The notes beneath the pieces are model-generated. The model did not search any database, was not told where the DNA came from, and worked only from the letters and a program-made list of their open reading frames with translations. The position numbers and the translations under genes were made by a program. A DNA stretch of 64,000 bases from Paenibacillus sp. FSL W8-0186 (GTDB taxonomy: Bacteria > Bacillota > Bacilli > Paenibacillales > Paenibacillaceae): positions 3,899,001-3,963,000 of the forward strand of contig NZ_CP150207.1 of assembly GCF_037969765.1 (NCBI RefSeq). Direction: 5' to 3'. How positions within the stretch are numbered: the stretch's first letter is position 1; each line of letters begins with the position of its first letter. Below are positions 885 through 58,219 of this stretch, piece after piece.

Positions 885-1075
885 GGTTGAATGGATTTCA
901 TGCATCTAATTACTGTTCAATAAGGCTGTTTCGCAAAATAGCTGTATTTAAAGTAACTAAAACACAGCTTTTCAACCTATCGGGACATTTTTTAAATTCT
1001 TACTGCTAGAAATCCAGTTAATGGCGCATTCAGCGATGGACCATATCCTTTTACTACAGCAAATGCAGTTAGCTG
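885..1075. repeat. Possible decayed four-palindrome array in the GH3 upstream region
   Basis: The 396 bp between the GH3 start and the next terminator has no credible gene. Half-sites resembling the 27-bp palindrome of the arrays at 42204 and 58027 occur here: TGCATCTAATT near 901, an element at 997-1023 that resembles the third element of the 58027 array, and a TGCAGTTAGCT arm at 1064. Their spacing is near, but not exactly, the 52-62-52 pattern. I read it as a possible degenerate relic. Confidence 0.3.
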
Positions 1076-18040: not shown

Positions 18041-18064
18041 TTCAATCATATGTAAAACTATTTC
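18041..18064 (-). promoter_or_regulatory. Leader element of P1, position-locked with P2 and P3
   Basis: This 24-bp stretch matches 17 positions of the element at 23494 (P2). In all three units the TTCAAT core starts exactly 55 bp from the left edge of the -10 box, inside the transcribed leader. It may be an operator or an RNA element. Confidence 0.5.
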
Positions 18065-18076
18065 TAAATAATTGAA

Positions 18077-18124
18077 TGAATCCGCTTGCAAGTATAAAAT
18101 AACATATAGAACGCAGATTGTAAA
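18077..18124 (-). promoter_or_regulatory. Promoter P1 with cre at the start site
   Basis: On the minus strand: -35 TTTACA (18119-18124), 17-nt spacer, extended -10 TGT-TATTTT (18096-18104), then the cre-like TGCAAGCGGATTCA (18077-18090) over the predicted start. P2 and P3 have the same parts at the same spacing. Confidence 0.8.
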
Positions 18125-18225
18125 TAATAAAACATAAAACTTTTTATAATTATCTAAAATTAAATGGTGAATAGCGTTAAAAGGGGAGACAGGAACTAAA
18201 TTAGCGCTTATTTAGAGGCATTAAT

Positions 18226-18243: not shown

Positions 18244-18386
18244 ATAAGGATTATATCATCCATATTTCTTTATATATATTTGCTTTTCAATCAAATTTAG
18301 GATGTTTTATAGGGAATAAGAAGTATTTATTTATGCTTAATTAAAATAAATGGGCTTCCCATGACCTTGTCCAACCGGAAATGAAG

Positions 18387-18406
18387 AAAAAAGCACCTGT
18401 CGGTGC
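18387..18406 (-). terminator. Terminator of the abfA-araNPQ operon
   Basis: GCACC-GACA-GGTGC on the minus strand, followed by six U. It lies about 50 bp past the araQ stop and follows another small hairpin (18408-18420). Confidence 0.9.
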
Positions 18407-18458
18407 CTCATCAAATGAGGAGATTAGCTGCTCTCTCCGATGATTTAGGGGCGGCCAG

Positions 18459-19292
18459 CTAACCTTTTACCGCCCCGGCCGTCATGCCATCGATGAAATA
18501 TTTTTGGAAGGCTACAAATAAAATAAAAATGGGAAGAATCGAAAAAAACGAGCCTACAATCAATAAATCATAGTTGTTTCCGTAGGGTGTGAGCAGCGTC
18601 TTGAGGCCAATCGGGAGCGTGTACTTCCCGGCATCGCTCAGCACCATAAACGGCCACAGGAAGTTATTCCAGCTGTTCATGCCGTTCAGAATCGCCATCG
18701 CTGCAAAAGACGGCTTCATGACAGGCAGGATCAATCTTACGTAAATCCCATATTCCGTAGCCCCGTCAACCCGGCCTGCAGCAATGATCTCCTTCGGCAC
18801 GCCTCTTAAGTATTGCCGGAAGAAGAAGATCGTCGCGGCGCTGGCGATCCCCGGAAGCACGATGGCCGAATAGGAGTTCATGAGACCGATATTATGGGTC
18901 AGCGTATACAAAGGCAGCAGCAGAATTTCAAACGGCACCATCATGATCAGCAGCACGCAGATAAACAGGAAGTTCTTCCCCTTGAATTCGTAGGCCGAGA
19001 ACCCGTAAGCCACCGTTGCGCTAACCAGCAAGGTTAGCACCACCTGGACAATCGTCAGCAGCAGCGAGTTAAAAAACCAGGTGAAATACGCATGGTTCCC
19101 GGAGAATAAATAAACGAAGTTATCAAAATTCATGACCGAGAGGTCGAAGCTCAAATTCAGGCCGTAGCGGATCAAATCCTCCCCCGGCTTGAAGGAGGCG
19201 ATGGTTACGGCATAAAACGGAATGAGAATTAGCGCACACAGGATGGCGAAAAAGACAAAAAGGATGATTTTAACGGAAGTATCCCTGCTCAT
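18459..19292 (-). CDS. araQ: Arabino-oligosaccharide ABC transporter permease AraQ
   Basis: A 277-residue permease with six membrane segments; the EAA loop is EIIAAGRVDGATEYGIYVRL. It starts 3 bp after the AraP stop and is last in the araN-araP-araQ set. AraNPQ of Bacillus subtilis imports alpha-1,5-arabino-oligosaccharides and borrows the MsmX ATPase; no ATPase is encoded here either. A strong terminator follows. Confidence 0.82.
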   Translation of the reverse strand: MSRDTSVKIILFVFFAILCALILIPFYAVTIASFKPGEDLIRYGLNLSFDLSVMNFDNFVYLFSGNHAYFTWFFNSLLLTIVQVVLTLLVSATVAYGFSAYEFKGKNFLFICVLLIMMVPFEILLLPLYTLTHNIGLMNSYSAIVLPGIASAATIFFFRQYLRGVPKEIIAAGRVDGATEYGIYVRLILPVMKPSFAAMAILNGMNSWNNFLWPFMVLSDAGKYTLPIGLKTLLTPYGNNYDLLIVGSFFSILPIFILFVAFQKYFIDGMTAGAVKG

Positions 19293-19295
19293 TCG

Positions 19296-20189
19296 TCACT
19301 CCTCCTTCTTGAACATCCCGGAAAAGGCCAGCTGCGTCAGATTGATGACCATCGTAATGGCCAAAAGCACAATGCCGACGGCTGCCGCATATCCGAGATT
19401 GTTCTTCTCGATTCCTTGCCGGTACAAATATCCGACGATCGTAAGGCCGATGTTCTTGGGCGAGTTATTTCCATTCCACAGCATCATGCTCTCGATGAAC
19501 ATCGCGAGTCCCGCATAAATGCTGATCGTTAATACATAGATCGTGGTCGGTTTCAATAAAGGCATCGTGATCCTTGTGAATTTCTGCAAGGACGACGCTC
19601 CGTCGATCGAGGCGGCTTCATAGTATTCATCCGGAATATTTTTGAGGCCTGCCAAAAAATAAAGCATATTGACCCCTGTCCACCTCCAGGTCGCCAGCGA
19701 CACCAGAGCTACAAATCCAGTAACCTGCCCCTTCAGAAATTTGACTGGACCGATTCCGAACCAGGCCAGCACGCTGTTGATCAGTGAGCCTTCCATTTCT
19801 CCAAACATCAGCCGGAAAATCGTCCCGGCCACGACCACGGAGGTCAATGCCGGAAAGAAGAAGGAGGATTTAAAGAAATCTCTCCCCCACATGAATTTAT
19901 TGTTGATGAGTACGGCAAACAGCATCGGAAATGGAATCAGCACAGCTAGAGTAAGCACCATGTAAACGGCGCTGTTCGTTACGGCTTTGAGGAATACGCC
20001 GTCGCCCATCAGCTTCTCGTAATTGCTGAAGCCGACCCAGCTGGCTTCCTGCCCGAGCTGGATTTTCTGAAAACTCATGCCAAATGAGCTGCCCAGCGGA
20101 TAGACCCAGAAGAATAAGAACACGAGGATAAAAGGCAGCACAAAAACGTAGGGAGCGACTTTTTGCGAGTAGAGAAATTTTTTGATCAT
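19296..20189 (-). CDS. araP: Arabino-oligosaccharide ABC transporter permease AraP
   Basis: A 297-residue permease resembling B. subtilis AraP: LFYSQKVAPYVFVLPFIL-like start, SFQKIQLG periplasmic stretch and EAA loop YYEAASIDGASSLQKFTRI. Six membrane segments. It follows araN by 81 bp holding a hairpin and precedes araQ by 3 bp. It pairs with AraQ to form the channel. Not to be confused with the sugar-binding sensor protein called AraP in Geobacillus, whose counterpart is at 28540. Confidence 0.82.
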   Translation of the reverse strand: MIKKFLYSQKVAPYVFVLPFILVFLFFWVYPLGSSFGMSFQKIQLGQEASWVGFSNYEKLMGDGVFLKAVTNSAVYMVLTLAVLIPFPMLFAVLINNKFMWGRDFFKSSFFFPALTSVVVAGTIFRLMFGEMEGSLINSVLAWFGIGPVKFLKGQVTGFVALVSLATWRWTGVNMLYFLAGLKNIPDEYYEAASIDGASSLQKFTRITMPLLKPTTIYVLTISIYAGLAMFIESMMLWNGNNSPKNIGLTIVGYLYRQGIEKNNLGYAAAVGIVLLAITMVINLTQLAFSGMFKKEE

Positions 20190-20216
20190 CGCACTACTCC
20201 TTTATGAAATGGAGTC

Positions 20217-20244
20217 GGAGCTGCCCTTGGGAAGGACAGCCTCC
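20217..20244 (-). promoter_or_regulatory. Intercistronic hairpin between araN and araP
   Basis: GGAG-CTG-CCTT pairs with its complement around a GGG loop, with small interruptions. It sits between the binding protein and first permease genes, the same place as the hairpin at 16500-16550. Confidence 0.55.
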
Positions 20245-20270
20245 TGAATTGATGAATAAGCGGTTACTTG

Positions 20271-21602
20271 CTATTTCAATTCTTGTTCAATTTGCGCTTG
20301 AGCTGCGTCTAGTGCTTCCTTTATATCTCTGCCGTCTTCAAATATTTCGTTCAAGGTCACTGTGCAAAGGACATTGTTGATCGTTGGCGTCGCAGAGGTC
20401 GATTTGATCAGCTGGATTTCGCCCTTGAGCTCATTCAGAACATCGAAGGGGTTGTTCTGGAAATATTGCACGAACTGGTTGTCTGGGTTGTGCGTAACGT
20501 CCTTCATGTCCCAGACGTCCATGTTGACCGGATCAAAGCCCAGCGTATTCCAGATTTCCTTATTCGCATCCAGCGATAATTTGGCGAAGGCCAGGAAGTC
20601 CTTGGCCAGCTGAATATCCTTGGCCGTCTTCGTCACGACGGTGCCCGTGCCTCCCCCGCCCACAGAGCGCGGCATTCCTTTCTCAATGACGGGGATCGGC
20701 GCGATCGCAATTTTGCCGGATAAATCCTTCATATAGTTCGTATATCTCGACATTTGCCATAGAGGCATGAAAGCGGTAGCGTAATTGCCCGCATTGAACT
20801 CACCGTAGGCTTCCTCGGTATCCGGCTGCCCTCCGGCAATCGTCGATAGAACATTGCTGTCCTGCAAATCCTTCAGAATGGTCAGACCTTTGACCATTTG
20901 TTCCGAGTTTACGACGGGCTTGCTGGCCTCATCCGTAAAATCGCTGCCCTGCTGCGCAAGCAGCATCGAGGTCTGCCAGGTTGCGCTGGTATCGGCGGTA
21001 CCCATGTATTTGCCGGTGGCTTCGTATACTTTGATTCCAGCCTGCTTGAAGTCTTCCCAGGTCTCGATCGTCTTGTAGTCGACGTCAGCCTGCTCTAGAA
21101 TTTCCGTATTATAGAACGCGACCGATGCGCCTACATGGGTAGGCACGCCGTAATTTTGGCCGTCCTTGCTGTACAGGTCGACCCTGGATTTCACGATCGT
21201 GTCGCGATACGGGTCAATCACGTCATTCAAAGGCACCAATTGGGGAGTCCCTGCAAGGAAATCCGGGAACTTGCCCAGCTCAATGTCCGCGATATCGGGA
21301 GCCCCAACCCCTGTTTGCACGGCGATCGATAGTTTATTATGCATGTCATCGTAAGGCATTACTGTCACATTCAATTTGATTTGCCGATCCTGGTTGGCCT
21401 CGTTCCATTTGCCAAGCATCTTCTCAAAATGTTGACCGTGTAACTCCACAAATGTCCAATAGGACAATTCCGTTGCGCCTTCACCTGCTCCTCCGTCGAG
21501 AACCGAGGTTTGCCCTCCCATGCTCTTAGGCGACTGCCCGCAACCGAACAATGCGAGCGTCATTGACATTGCGACAAGCACAATAAACCATCTTTGCTTC
21601 AT
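20271..21602 (-). CDS. araN: Arabino-oligosaccharide-binding lipoprotein AraN
   Basis: A 443-residue secreted lipoprotein, lipobox ALFGC (Cys21). LSYWTFVELHGQHFE and MPYDDMHNKLSIAVQTG match AraN-type binding proteins. It starts with a strong AAGGAGG upstream of ATG 21602. It should capture arabino-oligomers for AraPQ. No promoter was recognised in the 345-bp gap to abfA, so it is probably co-transcribed with abfA from P2. Confidence 0.83.
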   Translation of the reverse strand: MKQRWFIVLVAMSMTLALFGCGQSPKSMGGQTSVLDGGAGEGATELSYWTFVELHGQHFEKMLGKWNEANQDRQIKLNVTVMPYDDMHNKLSIAVQTGVGAPDIADIELGKFPDFLAGTPQLVPLNDVIDPYRDTIVKSRVDLYSKDGQNYGVPTHVGASVAFYNTEILEQADVDYKTIETWEDFKQAGIKVYEATGKYMGTADTSATWQTSMLLAQQGSDFTDEASKPVVNSEQMVKGLTILKDLQDSNVLSTIAGGQPDTEEAYGEFNAGNYATAFMPLWQMSRYTNYMKDLSGKIAIAPIPVIEKGMPRSVGGGGTGTVVTKTAKDIQLAKDFLAFAKLSLDANKEIWNTLGFDPVNMDVWDMKDVTHNPDNQFVQYFQNNPFDVLNELKGEIQLIKSTSATPTINNVLCTVTLNEIFEDGRDIKEALDAAQAQIEQELK

Positions 21603-21744
21603 TGTTGACCTCCTTAAAATTTTCTTTTAAGTGCAGATCATAGAAGTTAAAGTTGTGCATACTTGTTAAATCCGGCGGCTGTACGCTGCTGTGCCTGTGA
21701 CGAGTTGTCAGTTTAGGTAATGTTAAACTATGTTGTACGCAGAT

Positions 21745-21915
21745 GGGCTGCGAACAGCTGTAACTGGCTATGCGCTACTCTTAGCTATGCGCTGCTCATG
21801 GGCTATGAACAGCTGTGTGCTACATCTTAGCGATGTGCTGCTCATGGCTATGAACAGCTGTGTGCTGGTCTTAGCCATGCGCTGCATCTTAGCTTTGAAC
21901 AGCTATTTGCTGGCA
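21745..21915. repeat. 45-bp degenerate tandem repeats between abfA and araN
   Basis: GAACAGCT recurs at 21752, 21807, 21852 and 21897 (steps 55, 45, 45), and GGCTATGAACAGCTGTGTGC occurs at 21801 and 21846. TTAGC-ATG blocks recur in between. The gap (21603-21947) has no credible gene. On the transcribed strand the repeats form part of the abfA-araN intercistronic region. Confidence 0.75.
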
Positions 21916-21947
21916 TGACTCGGCTGTAATTGGCGTGACTGGCGCTG

Positions 21948-23577
<1,630 letters not shown>

Positions 23578-23680
23578 CGATTAAACATAAACCTTTTTAT
23601 AATAATATGAAACTATTGCTCTTTTTTATGCTTATTTAGGGCAATTTTAGTTCTTCTGCGGCCTTTGGACATCTATTAAA

Positions 23681-23698
23681 TTTATATAAATATATAAT
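23681..23698. promoter_or_regulatory. Distal A/T block of P2
   Basis: TTTATATAAATATATAAT, identical over 18 bp to the block at 18226, lies 104 bp upstream of the P2 -35. A further stretch at 23786-23810 (TTGGTTTAGAATTATTTGAA) resembles 27268-27292 in front of the ArsR-type gene. Confidence 0.5.
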
Positions 23699-23908
23699 AC
23701 ATACGCTGATATATTCTTGTTTTTTAATCGTTTAAAGGCAATTGGCTAAAAATGCAGGCGATATATCTTGTTTTTTTGGAAATTATTGGTTTAGAATTAT
23801 TTGAACTAAAAGAGTGATGGAGGATTAGTTGACAGGCTGAGGATGGCTAGTAACCTGTGTGCAGCGGCCGGCGTGGCTGGTTGGGTTGGGCTTGGCTAGT
23901 TACTTGGG

Positions 23909-23993
23909 ATGCAATGGGCTGGGCGTCCATACTCGAATGTAGTGGTTGGGCGTGGCCACACTCGAATGCAATGGGTTGGGCGAAGGCTAACGG
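23909..23993. repeat. Three 28-29-bp direct repeats
   Basis: Units starting ATGYARTGGKYTGGGCG begin at 23909, 23937 and 23966. The third runs into the first large repeat unit. Non-coding on both strands as far as I can see. Confidence 0.65.
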
Positions 23994-24170
23994 ACACAGC
24001 AGACGCTATTCTCGCTTTTCCGGCTAATTTGGCGGCCTAACGGACACAGGAGACCTTATTTACTCAAAACCCATATTCTTTCCAGTCATTTTGGCACAAT
24101 AGCGGAACCACGGTCCGTTAGCTTACAGATTTGCGGCATTTTGGAGAAATAGCGGATCCAGGGTCCGTTA
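23988..24170. repeat. Four-palindrome array, 23-bp family, copy 1
   Basis: Four 23-bp elements of the form TAACGGAC-N8-CGCTATT (one CTTATT variant) at 23988, 24038 (forward) and 24098, 24148 (inverted). Start-to-start spacing is 50, 60 and 50 bp. The best copies form a 7-bp stem with one mismatch. Total 183 bp. Confidence 0.85.
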
Positions 24171-24308
24171 CGTTTGCAGCAAAGCTTTATTTCATTCGAG
24201 CATAATGGAACTGAGCCGAAGCAGCCATTGACTGGCATGTAGGTACGATAGTGTGCTATGTATCTTGTGAAACCAAGTAGCTGGCTTGGCCCAAAGCTCG
24301 TAATTGAA

Positions 24309-24398
24309 CCAACTGATGTGCTTGAACCGACTGGTGTGCTTGAACCGACTGGTGTGCTTGTACCAACTGATGTGCTTGTACCAACTGATGTGCTTGCC
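24309..24398. repeat. 18-bp tandem repeats, five units
   Basis: Five units of the form CCRACTGRTGTGCTTGWA in a row (24309, 24327, 24345, 24363, 24381). Two subtypes alternate (CCAACTGATG and CCGACTGGTG). Other copies of the large repeat hold three units or a decayed run. Confidence 0.85.
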
Positions 24399-24428
24399 GC
24401 CGGTAAATGCAATGGGTTGGGCGAAGGC

Positions 24429-24611
24429 TAACGGACATAGGAGACGCTATTCTCGCTTTTTCGGCTAATTTGGCGGCCTAACGGACACAGGGGACCTTAT
24501 TTACTCAAAACCCATATTCTTTCCAGTCATTTTGGCACAATAGCGGAACCACGGTCCGTTAGCTTACAGATTTGCGGCATTTTGGAGAAATAGCGGATGC
24601 AGGGTCCGTTA
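24429..24611. repeat. Four-palindrome array, 23-bp family, copy 2
   Basis: Elements at 24429, 24479, 24539 and 24589; spacing 50, 60, 50 bp, the same as copy 1, with a few base changes. Confidence 0.85.
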
Positions 24612-24750
24612 CGTTTGCAGCAAAGCTTTGCTTCATTCGAGCATAATTGGACTGAGCCGAAGCAGCCATTGACTGGCATGTAGGTACGATAGTGTGCTAG
24701 GTATCTTGTGAAACCCAAGTAGCTGGCTTGGCCCAAAGCTCGTAACTGAA

Positions 24751-24804
24751 CCGACTGGTGTGCTTGAACCGACTGGTGTGCTTGTACCAACTGATGTGCT
24801 TGCC
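24751..24804. repeat. 18-bp tandem repeats, three units
   Basis: Units at 24751, 24769 and 24787, in phase with those of copy 1. The unit number differs from the other copies, as expected for slippage. Confidence 0.8.
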
Positions 24805-24834
24805 GCCGGTAAATGCAATGGGTTGGGCGAAGGC

Positions 24835-25017
24835 TAACGGACATAGGAGACGCTATTCTCGCTTTTTCGGCTAATTTGGCGGCCTAACGGACACAGGGGA
24901 TCTTATTTACTCAAAACCCATGTTCTTTTCAGTCATTTTGGCACAATAGCGGAACCACGGTCCGTTAGCTTACAGATTTGCGGCATTTTGGAGAAATAGC
25001 GGATCCAGGGTCCGTTA
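24835..25017. repeat. Four-palindrome array, 23-bp family, copy 3
   Basis: Elements at 24835, 24885, 24945 and 24995; spacing 50, 60, 50 bp again. Confidence 0.85.
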
Positions 25018-25156
25018 CGTTTGCAGCAAAGCTTTATTTCATTCGAGCATAATGGAACTGAGCCGAAGCAGCCATCGACTGGCATGTAGGTACGATAGTG
25101 TGCTAGGTATCTTGTGAAACCCAAGTAGCTGGCTTGGCCCAAAGCTCGTAACTGAA

Positions 25157-25247
25157 CCGACTGGTGTGCTTCAACCGACTGGTGTGCTTTAATTAATTGA
25201 GCGTACTTGTACCAACTGATACGCTGGTACCAACTAGTCTGCTTGCT
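25157..25247. repeat. 18-bp tandem repeats, five decayed units
   Basis: Units at 25157 and 25175 are regular, one at 25193 is 19 bp and diverged, and those at 25212 and 25230 carry substitutions. The run marks the outer edge of the repeat block. Confidence 0.65.
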
Positions 25248-25262
25248 GCCCACAAAACCAAA

Positions 25263-25289
25263 AGCCCTTGACCATAATGGTCAAGGGCT
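25263..25289 (-). terminator. Terminator of the GH43 lipoprotein gene
   Basis: A 12-bp perfect stem (AGCCCTTGACCA and complement) with 3-nt loop, followed on the minus strand by UUUUGGUUUUG. It lies about 80 bp past the GH43 stop. Confidence 0.88.
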
Positions 25290-25372
25290 AGCAGCTATAC
25301 AAGCAACTAACGCGTCTGGTACAGCTCAGCTCGAACAATTCACAATAGCTCAATCGGCTCGAACGGTCAATT

Positions 25373-26878
25373 TCACTCCTTCGCTGTAATACGGCTGCCC
25401 CACACCGCCTCACCTGCGCCGGATAAAGCAGTGAAGACCATGACGTGCTGCAGCGTTCCGCCGTCCCATTGGCGCAGGAAAACGCCGCGGTATACGCTGC
25501 CCGAAAGGGCCAGTTCAAGCTCATGGCCGCCGGTAAGGCGCCATGTGCCTTCCTCGCTGCCAGTCACCTTGCCGTTGTCGTCCAGGCGGATGAGCGAGGA
25601 CTCCTTGACCTCGGCCGTAATGTCCTTGCCGTGGCGGACGAACTTGTAATCGCCGGCAAGCTCCGCCGCATTGTACGACCCGATCGTCTCGCCGCTATAG
25701 CGGTGAGGCGCCACGACCGGCCAGCCCTGCTCATTCATAAACATCTGATGCACGCGCACCTCATGCCTCTCCCCCAGATTCGGAAACCGGGTATGAAAAA
25801 TCAAAAAATACCTGCCTGTCGCTTCATCATAATAAGCGGAATTGTGTCCAGGCGACACATAAGCCGTACCCGCAGCCAGGGTGTCTCCCTCGGCAGAGCC
25901 AAATTCCACATTGCCCATCAGCTTCACGCCATAAGGTGCAATCGCCTCATCATCAAAGAACGTGCCCGCAGGGCCGCCTACACGGGTCATGTCATGACCC
26001 TCGGCATCCACAAACGGACCGTCCGGCGTTTTCGACCTTACTACGCGAATGTTGTAGCCTCCTGTAGCGTCAAGCCCGCCGTATGACAAAAACAAGTAAT
26101 AATAATCCGTATCCGGGCTGTACAGCATATAAGGGCCTTCGATGCGGCTATGGTTAGCCCCGAGGAGCTTTTTCCCATAGCCTTGGTCTGGATAAGGGAA
26201 TCCGGTCTCCGGATCCATCTGCAGAATGTAGATGCCCCCCGAATAAGAGCCGTACACCATCCACAGCTTCTCCTCTTTATCGAAAAATACGTGCGGATCG
26301 ACGACGTTCGGATGAACGGTGGCATCGTACACCGTACCATCCTCGCTAGGCTGGCCCCACATCCCCGACTTCAGCATAATGCCCAGGTTCTTGTACGGCC
26401 CCCCGACCTGATCCGCCACCGCCACGCCCATAGCCGATAATGGGGAATCCCCCTTGCAGGCGTTGTAGTACATGTAAAAACGTCCATCCGGCAATTGAAT
26501 GACATCCGGCGCCCAAAGCGTATTGCTCTGCGCCCATTCCAGCGTTTCCGCCAGCTCGGTAGTCACGTTCGGGATCAATGGATTACCGTCATGTACCCCT
26601 GAAGCAATCTCCGTCCAATTCATGAAATCCGTTGTCTTCGCCGCCGCCAAATGGGAACCAAAGACATAATAAGTATCGTCTACCTTGATGACAGATGGAT
26701 CATGAACGGATGCATTTTTGAAATTCGGCACCTCATCTGCCGCAGCTTGTTTTCCCGTCTCTGTCTGCACTTTTCCGCCTCCCTTAGCAGCCCCCTCGGG
26801 CAAACCGGTCACAGCCTGCCCGCTGCATGAAGCCAGCAGCAGCATGACTGTCCATCCGATGGCTATTTTAAGCTTCAA
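25373..26878 (-). CDS. GH43 endo-arabinanase, lipoprotein
   Basis: About 501 residues. TTG 26878 is chosen because GGGAGGG lies six nt upstream; the ATG five codons earlier overlaps that site. A short signal peptide with lipobox LLASC (Cys18) is followed by a Gly/Thr-rich tether. The GH43 domain shows Asp60 in SVHDPSVIK, Asp in VDPHVFF and Glu in RIEGPYMLY, plus AYVSPGHNSAYYDE. A C-terminal beta domain (LAGDYKFVRHG...VFTALSGAGEAVWG) is also present in the SLH enzyme at 6091. It is a membrane-anchored endo-arabinanase, transcribed alone from P3 and divergent from the ArsR-type regulator. Confidence 0.88.
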   Translation of the reverse strand: MKLKIAIGWTVMLLLASCSGQAVTGLPEGAAKGGGKVQTETGKQAAADEVPNFKNASVHDPSVIKVDDTYYVFGSHLAAAKTTDFMNWTEIASGVHDGNPLIPNVTTELAETLEWAQSNTLWAPDVIQLPDGRFYMYYNACKGDSPLSAMGVAVADQVGGPYKNLGIMLKSGMWGQPSEDGTVYDATVHPNVVDPHVFFDKEEKLWMVYGSYSGGIYILQMDPETGFPYPDQGYGKKLLGANHSRIEGPYMLYSPDTDYYYLFLSYGGLDATGGYNIRVVRSKTPDGPFVDAEGHDMTRVGGPAGTFFDDEAIAPYGVKLMGNVEFGSAEGDTLAAGTAYVSPGHNSAYYDEATGRYFLIFHTRFPNLGERHEVRVHQMFMNEQGWPVVAPHRYSGETIGSYNAAELAGDYKFVRHGKDITAEVKESSLIRLDDNGKVTGSEEGTWRLTGGHELELALSGSVYRGVFLRQWDGGTLQHVMVFTALSGAGEAVWGSRITAKE

Positions 26879-26967: not shown

Positions 26968-27053
26968 GTTTCAATTAAACATAAACTAATTTTGTAATCA
27001 TTAAATGAATTCGCTTACAGCTATAAAATAGCATACAGTCCCCTTATAGTAAA
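26968..27053 (-). promoter_or_regulatory. Promoter P3 with cre and leader palindrome
   Basis: -35 TTTACT (27048-27053), 17-nt spacer, extended -10 TGC-TATTTT (27025-27033), cre TGTAAGCGAATTCA (27006-27019, one mismatch) over the start, and GTTTCAATTAAAC (26968-26980) in the leader, at the same offset from the -10 as in P2. Confidence 0.82.
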
Positions 27054-27166
27054 CGTATCTATATAAATCTTTTCATATTTTGTTGAATTCCATCTCTTTA
27101 TTTTTAATATAAGCTTATAAATATAAAGAATCATTCGAAAATCGCTTTATTGCTTGCTGCCTCTTC

Positions 27167-42203: not shown

Positions 42204-42396
42204 AACTAAATGCATTTCATGCAGTTAGTTCAGCGATTTTTTCCGTGTTAGCGGGAACTAACTGCAAAACCTACATTTAGTTTAAAGCTATTTCGACGAA
42301 TGAGCTCCATTCGGGCAAACTAACTGCATGTTTTACATTTAGCGTATGTATTTTTGATAAAAGAGGCTTAACTAAATGTATAAAATACATTCCTAT
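42204..42396. repeat. Four-palindrome array, 27-bp family
   Basis: Four elements, each an 11-bp arm (AACTAAMTGYA), 5-bp centre and 11-bp inverted arm, at 42204, 42256, 42318 and 42370. Start spacings are 52, 62 and 52 bp. The fourth has a decayed right arm. Each could form an 11-bp stem-loop. The rest of the 570-bp gap between the CobQ-like gene and the importer holds only the promoter listed next. Confidence 0.85.
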
Positions 42397-53396: not shown

Positions 53397-53973
53397 ATGC
53401 AGCCACTCCTTTCCTCTCATCGTAATTCTTTACGTTGCATATCTATTACAGATACCCTGTCCTGATTAGAAGGCAGATGCAGATCTACAACTAGATCTAT
53501 AAACAAGACAAGTATCCAATCCGATCAAACTGCAAACATCTAGTGTTAGATCAAACTACAAGATCAGTCAAATCAAGTTGTAAATATAGATCTAAGATGA
53601 ATTCGACTGAAAATTTGGGATGCAGTCAAGGAAACACATCCCATGAACCTGTATCATCCAAGGAATTTAGGAGGTACAGCTTCGTAGGAACAGTTTACGT
53701 ACTTACTCACAACATTTTTATCATTCAACTTAATAATAAATGGATTTATAGCCGTTAGTTTCTACGGTAAGAAAGGGAACATAAATTTAAATGGATTTAG
53801 TTATAAGAAGGAACATCGCCAATGATCGGACTAGATCCTTGATCTTAGGTGTATAAATCCATCTAATTCCCTAAAACAATGGTTTAGAGCCTAATTAGAT
53901 ACCTTCATTCCATTTAATACAGCACAGTTTGGTTGGTATATGCATATAAACATACAAGCTAAATCAAAACGTA
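53397..53973 (-). other. Long leader of araDBM
   Basis: About 577 bp between the AraR operator and the araD start, A/T-rich, with repeated AGATCTA/TAGATCT-like words near 53480-53610 and again near 53830. I recognise no known riboswitch or T-box and no supported gene. It is an unusually long leader for an ara operon. Confidence 0.4.
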
Positions 53974-57195: not shown

Positions 57196-57556
57196 AGTAG
57201 CTGCCTCCTTTCGTCATTTGCTGCATAGATGATTGCACGATTGGTTGCGCGGTTGGTTGTACACTCGATCTTGCAGGTTGTTTCATAGATCGCTTCACGG
57301 GTTGTTTTATGGATGGTATTATGGATTGTTTTGTAGATTGTTTTATCGATTGTTTCATAGATGGCTTCACAGATTGCTTCACGGGATGAAGTGCGAGAAT
57401 TTGCTCAGTTCTAAAAGCTCTTGGCGCTCCCGATTGCAGACATGTTGCCCGAACCAGCCCACTGCAAATGGCATGAATGTGAATGGGCCGCTGCGAAATT
57501 CTGCCGCTGCGATCCATATATATGATCTCGACCACCTGGTTAATGTATTTTTTCAC
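57185..57556 (-). CDS. WYL-like small protein with repetitive Lys/Gln/Ser tail
   Basis: About 123 residues. Residues 1-58 (VVEIIYMDRSGRISQRPIHI, GLVRATCLQSGAPRAFRTEQ) resemble a WYL-type ligand or nucleic-acid binding strand set. Residues 60-115 are low-complexity KQS/KPS units from 12-bp DNA repeats and look basic and disordered. The start is uncertain: GTG 57556 or TTG 57559 follow GGAG at good spacing, ATG 57565 touches it. Overlaps the LexA-like gene. Confidence 0.55.
   Translation of the reverse strand: MKKYINQVVEIIYMDRSGRISQRPIHIHAICSGLVRATCLQSGAPRAFRTEQILALHPVKQSVKPSMKQSIKQSTKQSIIPSIKQPVKRSMKQPARSSVQPTAQPIVQSSMQQMTKGGSYYAS
57240..57385. repeat. Degenerate 12-bp repeats in a coding region
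   Basis: Units of the form GATTGTTTYRTA and variants repeat in phase with the reading frame, giving four-residue units such as KQSI and KQST. The repeat keeps the frame open. Confidence 0.75.
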
Positions 57557-58026: not shown

Positions 58027-58219
58027 CGCTAGATGTATTTTCTACATTTACTTTAAGCTAATAAGGGTAAATTTTGCGAAGTAAATGTAATTCCTACATC
58101 TAGTTTACGGTATTTTGCCTAACTAGCCTCCATATCTCATTTCTAACTGTAAGAATTGCAGCTAGTTTGTATCGTCAACGATAAACGGTAGTTTTTAAAT
58201 GTAACAAATACAATTAGTT
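58027..58219. repeat. Four-palindrome array, 27-bp family, second location
   Basis: Elements with 11-5-11 layout at 58027, 58079, 58141 and 58193; start spacings are 52, 62 and 52 bp, identical to the array at 42204. Arms have drifted (for example AAGTAAATGTA and TTCTAACTGTA), yet the spacing is exact. Confidence 0.82.

Follow-up and report, generated by a model that had tools for sequence, protein, structure and literature searches.

The 64,000-nucleotide window analysed here, from the 5.66 Mb genome of Paenibacillus sp. FSL W8-0186 (contig NZ_CP150207.1; C1:3899001-3963000), carries three copies of a repeat that we call a family I array; this repeat is a dispersed, rigidly spaced four-site DNA array present in many Paenibacillus and related bacteria, and the sequence families of such arrays seem to have partners of their own, small DNA-binding proteins that resemble nucleases. 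Each window array is 183 bp long and contains four 23-bp sites in the order forward-forward-reverse-reverse; their starts are separated by 50, 60 and 50 bp, which leaves gaps of 27, 37 and 27 bp. Copy 1 (23988-24170, forward strand, also recovered by blastn and model matches) has its sites at 23988-24010 and 24038-24060 (+) and at 24098-24120 and 24148-24170 (-); copy 2 (24429-24611, forward strand, 97% identity to copy 1) at 24429-24451 and 24479-24501 (+) and at 24539-24561 and 24589-24611 (-); and copy 3 (24835-25017, forward strand, 96% identity to copy 1) at 24835-24857 and 24885-24907 (+) and at 24945-24967 and 24995-25017 (-). A first-pass annotation of this DNA had reported arrays at 23988, 24429 and 24835, each with two forward and two inverted elements, and its coordinates, orientations and spacings are all exact. 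It had also counted three uses of the plan: three arrays are indeed present, but the copies, spaced 441 and 406 bp apart and 81-97% identical over 300 nt, belong to a tandem segmental duplication (23900-25189, period 406, no strand assigned) with 18-bp minisatellites in between, so that they are one duplicated unit and therefore one observation, not three; independent support comes from the rest of the genome and from other species. Window positions 18345-26546, an 8.2-kb stretch with several genes and the three arrays, correspond in the relative G022 to a spacer of roughly 0.5 kb that holds a single array.

The site is less uniform and less symmetrical than had been described. The pattern TAACGGAC-N8-CGCTATT, attributed to every element, is exact in 9 of the 12 window sites; the exceptions are the second forward sites, one per array, which end in CCTTATT or TCTTATT (2-3 mismatches). 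With up to 3 mismatches allowed, the window holds 14 matches to the 23-bp site where 1.41 are expected (0 of 100 shuffles reach 14), and 12 of these fall inside the three arrays. The word palindrome is too strong: the site is asymmetric, its strongest parts being CGGAC and TATT, and the complementarity of its arms is barely above that of shuffled arms (5.74 vs 5.60 of 10 pairs in 120 sites; 0 of 500 shuffles as high), a slight excess due mostly to the central pair.

Across the genome the exact site pattern occurs 36 times, as against once for a reversed control, and at least 41 family I arrays were tabulated (a lower bound, since two of the 39 loci fetched, L060 and L065, have no array by that rule and at least one more array, at 1394957, was found only in a later model search). 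All four sites are present at 50/60/50 within 1 bp in 38 of the 41, 24 of them at exactly 50-60-50, and the arrays at 1613104, 2374502 and 4524616 have one site lost or shifted; in this and all that follows, array statistics, linkage counts and co-occurrence are reckoned without regard to kinship. Full-length matches elsewhere in the genome have 65-74% identity to the window copy, and between most unlinked copies similarity stops at or near the array edges, where the outermost sites, being mutually inverted, form terminal inverted repeats. All 41 arrays lie outside genes as called by a simple open reading frame (ORF) caller; those with both neighbours (n=38) include 12 in convergent and 3 in divergent settings, compared with 8 and 11 among 56 background gaps longer than 150 bp, and the gene ends facing 174 arrays are 3' in 194 cases and 5' in 117 (nearest gene, simple ORF calls). 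No clear origin or terminus bias was apparent when the coordinates were viewed by eye. The arrays at C1:91152, 1041830 and 4961330 (L039, L049 and L073) sit in dispersed similar stretches of at least about 1.2 kb, with pieces 93-100% identical, suggesting recent duplication of larger units.

Variable spacing in other copies had been named as the outcome that would reduce the plan to coincidence; the plan withstood this test. When the first gap was left free between 12 and 42 bp in the named genomes, it was exactly 27 bp in 82 of 91 distinct site pairs; 81 of 88 had their first inverted site at a distance of 60 bp, and from there to the second it was 50 bp in 71 of 84 and 51 bp in 9 of 84 (the scan used 80 of at least 120 loci, and 3 further pairs ran off the fetched DNA). 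Among the matches listed are Paenibacillus, Cohnella, Alkalihalobacillus bogoriensis and a Bacillus. At positions shared between genomes, gap openings are roughly tenfold rarer inside arrays than beside them: in 37 comparisons with G022 the rate per 100 aligned bases is 0.36 within arrays and 3.83 in their flanks, at identities of 91.6 vs 85.8%, each of the three window arrays being compared with G022's single array and 4 of the 41 arrays being left out (two with no located counterpart locus, two not covered), and in 7 comparisons with G011 the rates are 0.71 and 7.67 (identity 80.8 vs 74.7%). This comparison under-samples heavily decayed copies, the arrays in it having been located by model search.

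The geometry is also found when no motif is specified. A scan for four similar 23-mers in forward-forward-reverse-reverse order, at lags of 40-72 and with a composition-corrected cut of 40, picked out 7 matches within the window and 8 across 298 kb of G022; a single Markov-shuffled copy of each gave 0. The search for bare geometry that the first-pass annotation had called for thus bears out the plan in 6 of 7 window matches and 7 of 8 in G022, which are spaced at about 50-60-50 and fall into several sequence families; the other two, at window 21753 and in G022, are ordinary tandem repeats, and matches classed as 'other' in the family scan include such artefacts. A 45-bp tandem repeat at window 21767-21911 (3.2 copies) imitates the four-site plan as 45-42-45.

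At least four families share the plan: family I; family II (CTAAATGCA/CTAACTGCA, 52-62-52), the 27-bp family of the first-pass annotation; family III (TTAGATGGATTT, about 51-62-51); and family IV (TAACGGTTG, about 50-61-50). The 23-bp and 27-bp families had been described as two unrelated sequences with entirely different arms, a description that we would withdraw: both contain TAA(C/A)(G/T)G half-sites, which are common to most array families and relate them to one another. The proposal of a class of element defined by its architecture is supported by the free-gap and motif-free scans; the class also has a partner protein family in common (see below). In the window, family II is represented on the forward strand at 42204-42396 (centres 52-62-52 by hand count) and at 58028-58218, both located by sequence and geometry scan. 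A probable family III array with TAACTGGATTT-like sites lies at 888-1071 (forward strand, 51-59-51, geometry scan score 46.6), and a weaker, possible one with TAAATGGATTT sites at 53735-53918 (forward strand, 51-59-51) scores under the composition-corrected cut of 40, the relative's copy reaching 42.2 (L319:8803).

The arrays show signs of helical phasing. In 76 non-redundant arrays from many species, A/T content oscillates with a 10.1-bp period (power 3.91 for the whole array, 0.68 with sites masked and 0.02 in flanks), with both runs of A and runs of T at the phased places; this set was selected for the 27-bp gap and is therefore no test of spacing. In g19, a genus of the same family, arrays have CTAACGAA-type sites and are spaced 50-70-50 in 16 of 18 fetched arrays (8 genomes) and 50-69-50 in the other 2, a middle gap one helical turn longer than in the 50-60-50 plan. 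These 18 were taken from the listed full-length matches; the listed ones that were not fetched are about 192-195 bp long, a single exception being 185 bp (G185:C5:306127), which leaves room for g19 arrays that depart from 50-70-50. Together, the phased A/T content and the one-turn step in the middle gap suggest that protein assembles on double-stranded DNA that is bent or wrapped.

A single protein family recurs beside arrays at five loci, and in two species its gene lies between two arrays. Our genome has eight loci of this partner gene, six of which adjoin arrays of six different motifs: TAACGGAC (family I) at 2034893, TAACGGAAC at 1985322, TAACGAA at 1997387, TAACGGTTG (family IV) at 2792619, where the gene is broken, TTAGATGGATTT-like arrays (family III) on both sides at 5099410, and CTAAATGCA arrays (family II) at C1:438107 (L388). 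The broken paralogs lie at C1:2792619-2793267 and 2011278-2011772, and the first of them retains an adjoining array of its own motif. Directly downstream of the eighth paralog there is a weak match with another motif (TGTGTATGAAAATTCATATAGAT, 51-50-52; L308, about 954, C1:1095953) that falls outside the fixed rule. The likeliest reader of the window arrays is the product of the family I partner gene at 2034893-2035546, 1.9 Mb away.

This protein, of 215 aa, is 99% identical to one from Paenibacillus woosongensis, which makes our strain a near relation of that species, and has no Pfam or NCBIfam assignment above cut-off. The partner fold is predicted to comprise a nuclease domain and a C-terminal winged helix; the predicted nuclease core runs alpha-beta-beta-beta-alpha-beta with acidic residues on strands 2 and 3, a feature of the PD-(D/E)XK type which we take to be EDxHD/Vsr-like. 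The putative catalytic residues are invariant in 44 diverse partner proteins. Of these 44, 13 match DUF559 (PF04480) at E <= 0.1, and one of eight singly scanned members, L397, passes the curated cut-off (25.6 vs 20.6 bits); for the family I partner no DUF559 match emerges, even with the threshold relaxed to E <= 10. Because TAAC(G/T)G looks like the Myb site of eukaryotes, Myb-like proteins were considered as partners; they were rejected, RsfA being present in 59 of 59 genomes and PF13921 giving 0-2 matches per genome (43 of 59 genomes) that are unrelated to arrays.

The association of gene and array is evident from co-occurrence, linkage and divergence. Among 59 genomes including our own, 38 have arrays and protein, 2 arrays only, 4 protein only (distant paralogs) and 15 neither, some of the array positives from the model search being weak (e.g. 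G050, G054, G056 and G032); the near branch of the partner (E <= 1e-60) is found in 31 of the 40 array genomes and in 0 of the 19 others. The corresponding numbers for 299 genomes of the class are 22, 7, 12 and 258; array matches were counted up to a ceiling of 44 per genome in the first set and 8 in the second. An array lies within 1.5 kb of 43 of 50 gene loci, on the downstream side in 41 and on both sides in 14, and 30 of the 41 downstream arrays are no more than 200 bp from the matched part of the partner gene; by comparison, 378 kb of G022 sequence taken as background hold 9 arrays, a conservative figure in that these stretches were partly chosen near expected arrays. Twenty further gene copies, scanned with wider lag ranges than the 50 loci, have an array nearby in 10 cases, with motifs different again (7 of 17 copies from genomes without a family I model match and 3 of 3 from genomes with one), a count that excludes L427 (54-46-54) and L433, with arrays more than 2 kb away. 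Motif distance and protein distance are correlated (Mantel 0.79, 25 non-redundant proteins, 0 of 2000 permutations), and remain so within the near branch (0.51, n=18, 0 of 2000 permutations). In g19, gene-bearing genomes have at least 8 arrays in seven cases and 7 in one, and the gene-less genomes have fewer, at 4, 2, 6, 2, 2, 6 and at least 8. The distant gene copies L434, L435 and L401 adjoin tandem arrays of near-perfect palindromic sites, e.g. ACAGCGGAACGCCGTTCCGCTGT; array number can therefore expand in tandem.

The pairing of gene and array is strongly supported by these computations. The reading that we favour, with a probability of about 0.7, is that the array is a four-site scaffold for a trans-acting, family-specific protein made up of a Vsr/EDxHD-like nuclease and a winged helix, and that the two form a pair resembling a REPtron, the combination of repetitive extragenic palindromic (REP) sequences with a REP-associated tyrosine transposase (RAYT). 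Its computed basis is the rigid spacing, the one-turn step, the phased A/T content, gene-array linkage, co-occurrence, motif-protein co-divergence and the predicted folds. The layout would be that of a gene copy with one or two adjoining arrays, plus many gene-less array copies scattered through intergenic DNA. The partner would bind the four sites in trans, probably as one dimer per site, while the DNA between them bends or wraps along the phased A/T tracts, bringing all four sites round to a single assembly; the predicted nuclease may then nick or cut DNA at this complex, an action that could spread or maintain the arrays. The partner might act by cutting to spread arrays, by repairing or converting them, or mainly by organising or repressing DNA. 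The stability of array positions and the scarcity of indels favour a maintained role; the large number of families, the patchy distribution of the gene and the composites of gene and array favour a selfish origin.

Several observations weigh against this reading. The arrays stay in place, 37 of 41 having a counterpart in G022; the only absence that could be inspected, at 3260975, looked like a candidate empty site but proved to be a deletion that leaves the last site, and no true empty site was found in the comparison with G022. Many of the matches listed (the best 120 of 998 homologs) are named 'transcriptional regulator', and a non-cutting role of the partner is possible. Arrays and gene do not always coincide: G032 and G042 have array matches with no detected gene, as do seven g19 genomes that make up all arrays-only cases in the class sample, and 12 class-sample genomes have the gene and no R1 array. 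By the fixed rules there is no array at 7 of the 50 gene loci (L358, a short locus, and L392, L394, L395, L397, L398 and L400, L397 being the sole member seen above the DUF559 cut-off), at 10 of the 20 further copies, or at the loci 1095128 and 2011278 (broken) of our own genome.

The alternative that deserves most attention, though we think it somewhat unlikely, is that the arrays are architectural or regulatory, the winged-helix protein being an autoregulated organiser, or a repressor, that wraps immobile arrays (e.g. to serve near the 3' ends of genes as a roadblock, an insulator or an anchor for loops), with the nuclease lost or irrelevant. Stable orthologous positions with indel depletion, A/T phasing, the excess of 3' over 5' gene ends (194 vs 117, 174 arrays), the rarity of divergent placement (3 of 38 arrays vs 11 of 56 background gaps) and the many records that name the partner a transcriptional regulator would all suit such a role, but it leaves unexplained why the putative catalytic residues are invariant in 44 diverse proteins, and the several families per genome and patchy gene presence suggest a selfish history. 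That the arrays are classical miniature inverted-repeat transposable elements (MITEs), or REP doublets forming hairpins (REPINs), that a known transposase left behind, their spacing arising incidentally as they were copied, is improbable: they are dispersed and intergenic, and most unlinked copies cease to be alike at or close to the array boundaries, but copies diverged to 65-74% identity nearly all keep their spacing, indels are depleted in place, and a different protein family is linked. A split autonomous form was sought and rejected, an inverted site lying within 260 bp in 88 of 88 testable forward pairs and two in 84. RAYT/REPIN membership was likewise rejected, since a search for PF01797 (Y1/HUH transposase) gave 0 matches in our genome, the one genome covered for this purpose, while the control matched in 5 of 14 genomes.

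A structured RNA or single long hairpin is highly improbable. RNA folding, which had been recommended as a check, does give a z of about -4.4, and arm complementarity within sites is slightly above shuffles, but the folding signal is equal on both strands and no covariation is seen between array arms or linkers, on which grounds, with 0 Rfam matches at gathering scores over the whole window, this candidate was rejected. Complementarity of linkers 1 and 3 is lower within a copy than between copies (7.90 vs 9.06 of 27), and that of the sites is 13.23 vs 12.87 for F1/R2 and 14.50 vs 13.98 for F2/R1 (of 23, within vs between); the one-turn step in g19 also speaks against a hairpin. Coincidence of two unrelated repeats has a negligible chance of being correct, the free-gap and motif-free scans, the multiple families and the g19 spacing all opposing it and no point having been found in its favour.

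To our knowledge, dispersed bacterial repeats with a dedicated enzyme are chiefly REP-RAYT systems, which use HUH chemistry and single-strand hairpins. The suggested comparison of the arrays with REP-type elements, including bacterial interspersed mosaic elements (BIMEs), holds for the logic of the partner gene but not for the Y1 partner, absent from our genome, or the GTAG or GT(A/G)G head, not seen at site ends in the consensus of 30 of its arrays. According to the parts of the source drawn on here, REPtrons have a partner gene flanked by its repeats, co-divergence of the two, repeat abundance that tracks the gene, and orthologous gene loci that stay in place (PMC2817692), and by analogy the arrays and their partner resemble REP-RAYT in logic, not in enzyme or DNA form. 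Both comprise dispersed short intergenic repeats and a partner that is flanked by and co-diverges with them, and in both repeat numbers follow the gene and orthologous gene loci keep their positions; the array partner is, by prediction, a Vsr/EDxHD-like nuclease with a winged helix rather than an HUH Y1 transposase, and the arrays have four sites in a fixed, helically stepped geometry whereas REP has one or two hairpins. Unlike the EDxHD/Vsr-like homing endonuclease I-Bth0305I, the array partner has a C-terminal winged helix, and its gene lies between or beside complete arrays, which are many and dispersed, and does not interrupt them. The endonuclease-like DUF559 proteins are a candidate for comparison, with 13 of 44 partner members matching and L397 above the cut-off, but the cognate of the window arrays has no match and L397 has no array by the fixed rule. 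The DNA gyrase wrapping motif, as given in the portion of its report used here, is 130 bp of phased base content with a period of 10.75 bp (PMC6379681); it is likewise a long degenerate pattern, whereas the arrays have a 10.1 bp period, 183 bp and four strong sequence-specific sites that vary by lineage. The intergenic repeat bcr1 of the Bacillus cereus group (147 and 167 bp; PMC2267715), compared by description and not by sequence, is similar in size, but the sections of its description consulted mention no four-site plan.

No description of these arrays or of the gene-array pairing was found in the open-access literature, and the pairing seems to be a type of bacterial repeat system not described before. 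We give slightly better than even odds to a separate dispersed-repeat system in which a nuclease-winged-helix protein would act on a wrapped, phased four-site unit, spreading or preserving such units, and which has diversified into several orthogonal pairs per genome in Paenibacillales and other Bacilli. With a double-strand array whose spacing differs by a whole helical turn between genera and a partner resembling a homing endonuclease, it would be an apparent independent solution to the pairing of repeat and enzyme. It would account for many intergenic elements in Paenibacillus and relatives, place a protein family filed as 'transcriptional regulator' in a setting, offer naturally orthogonal protein-DNA pairs, and make the long retention of such repeats in bacteria testable.

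The window contains two further repeats. A 122-bp repeat at 18041-18162, 23494-23615 and 26970-27091 (66 and 78% identity to the first copy) lies at or upstream of three ORF starts, where it is perhaps a shared promoter or regulator site, and a 12/24-bp tandem repeat lies at 57278-57381.
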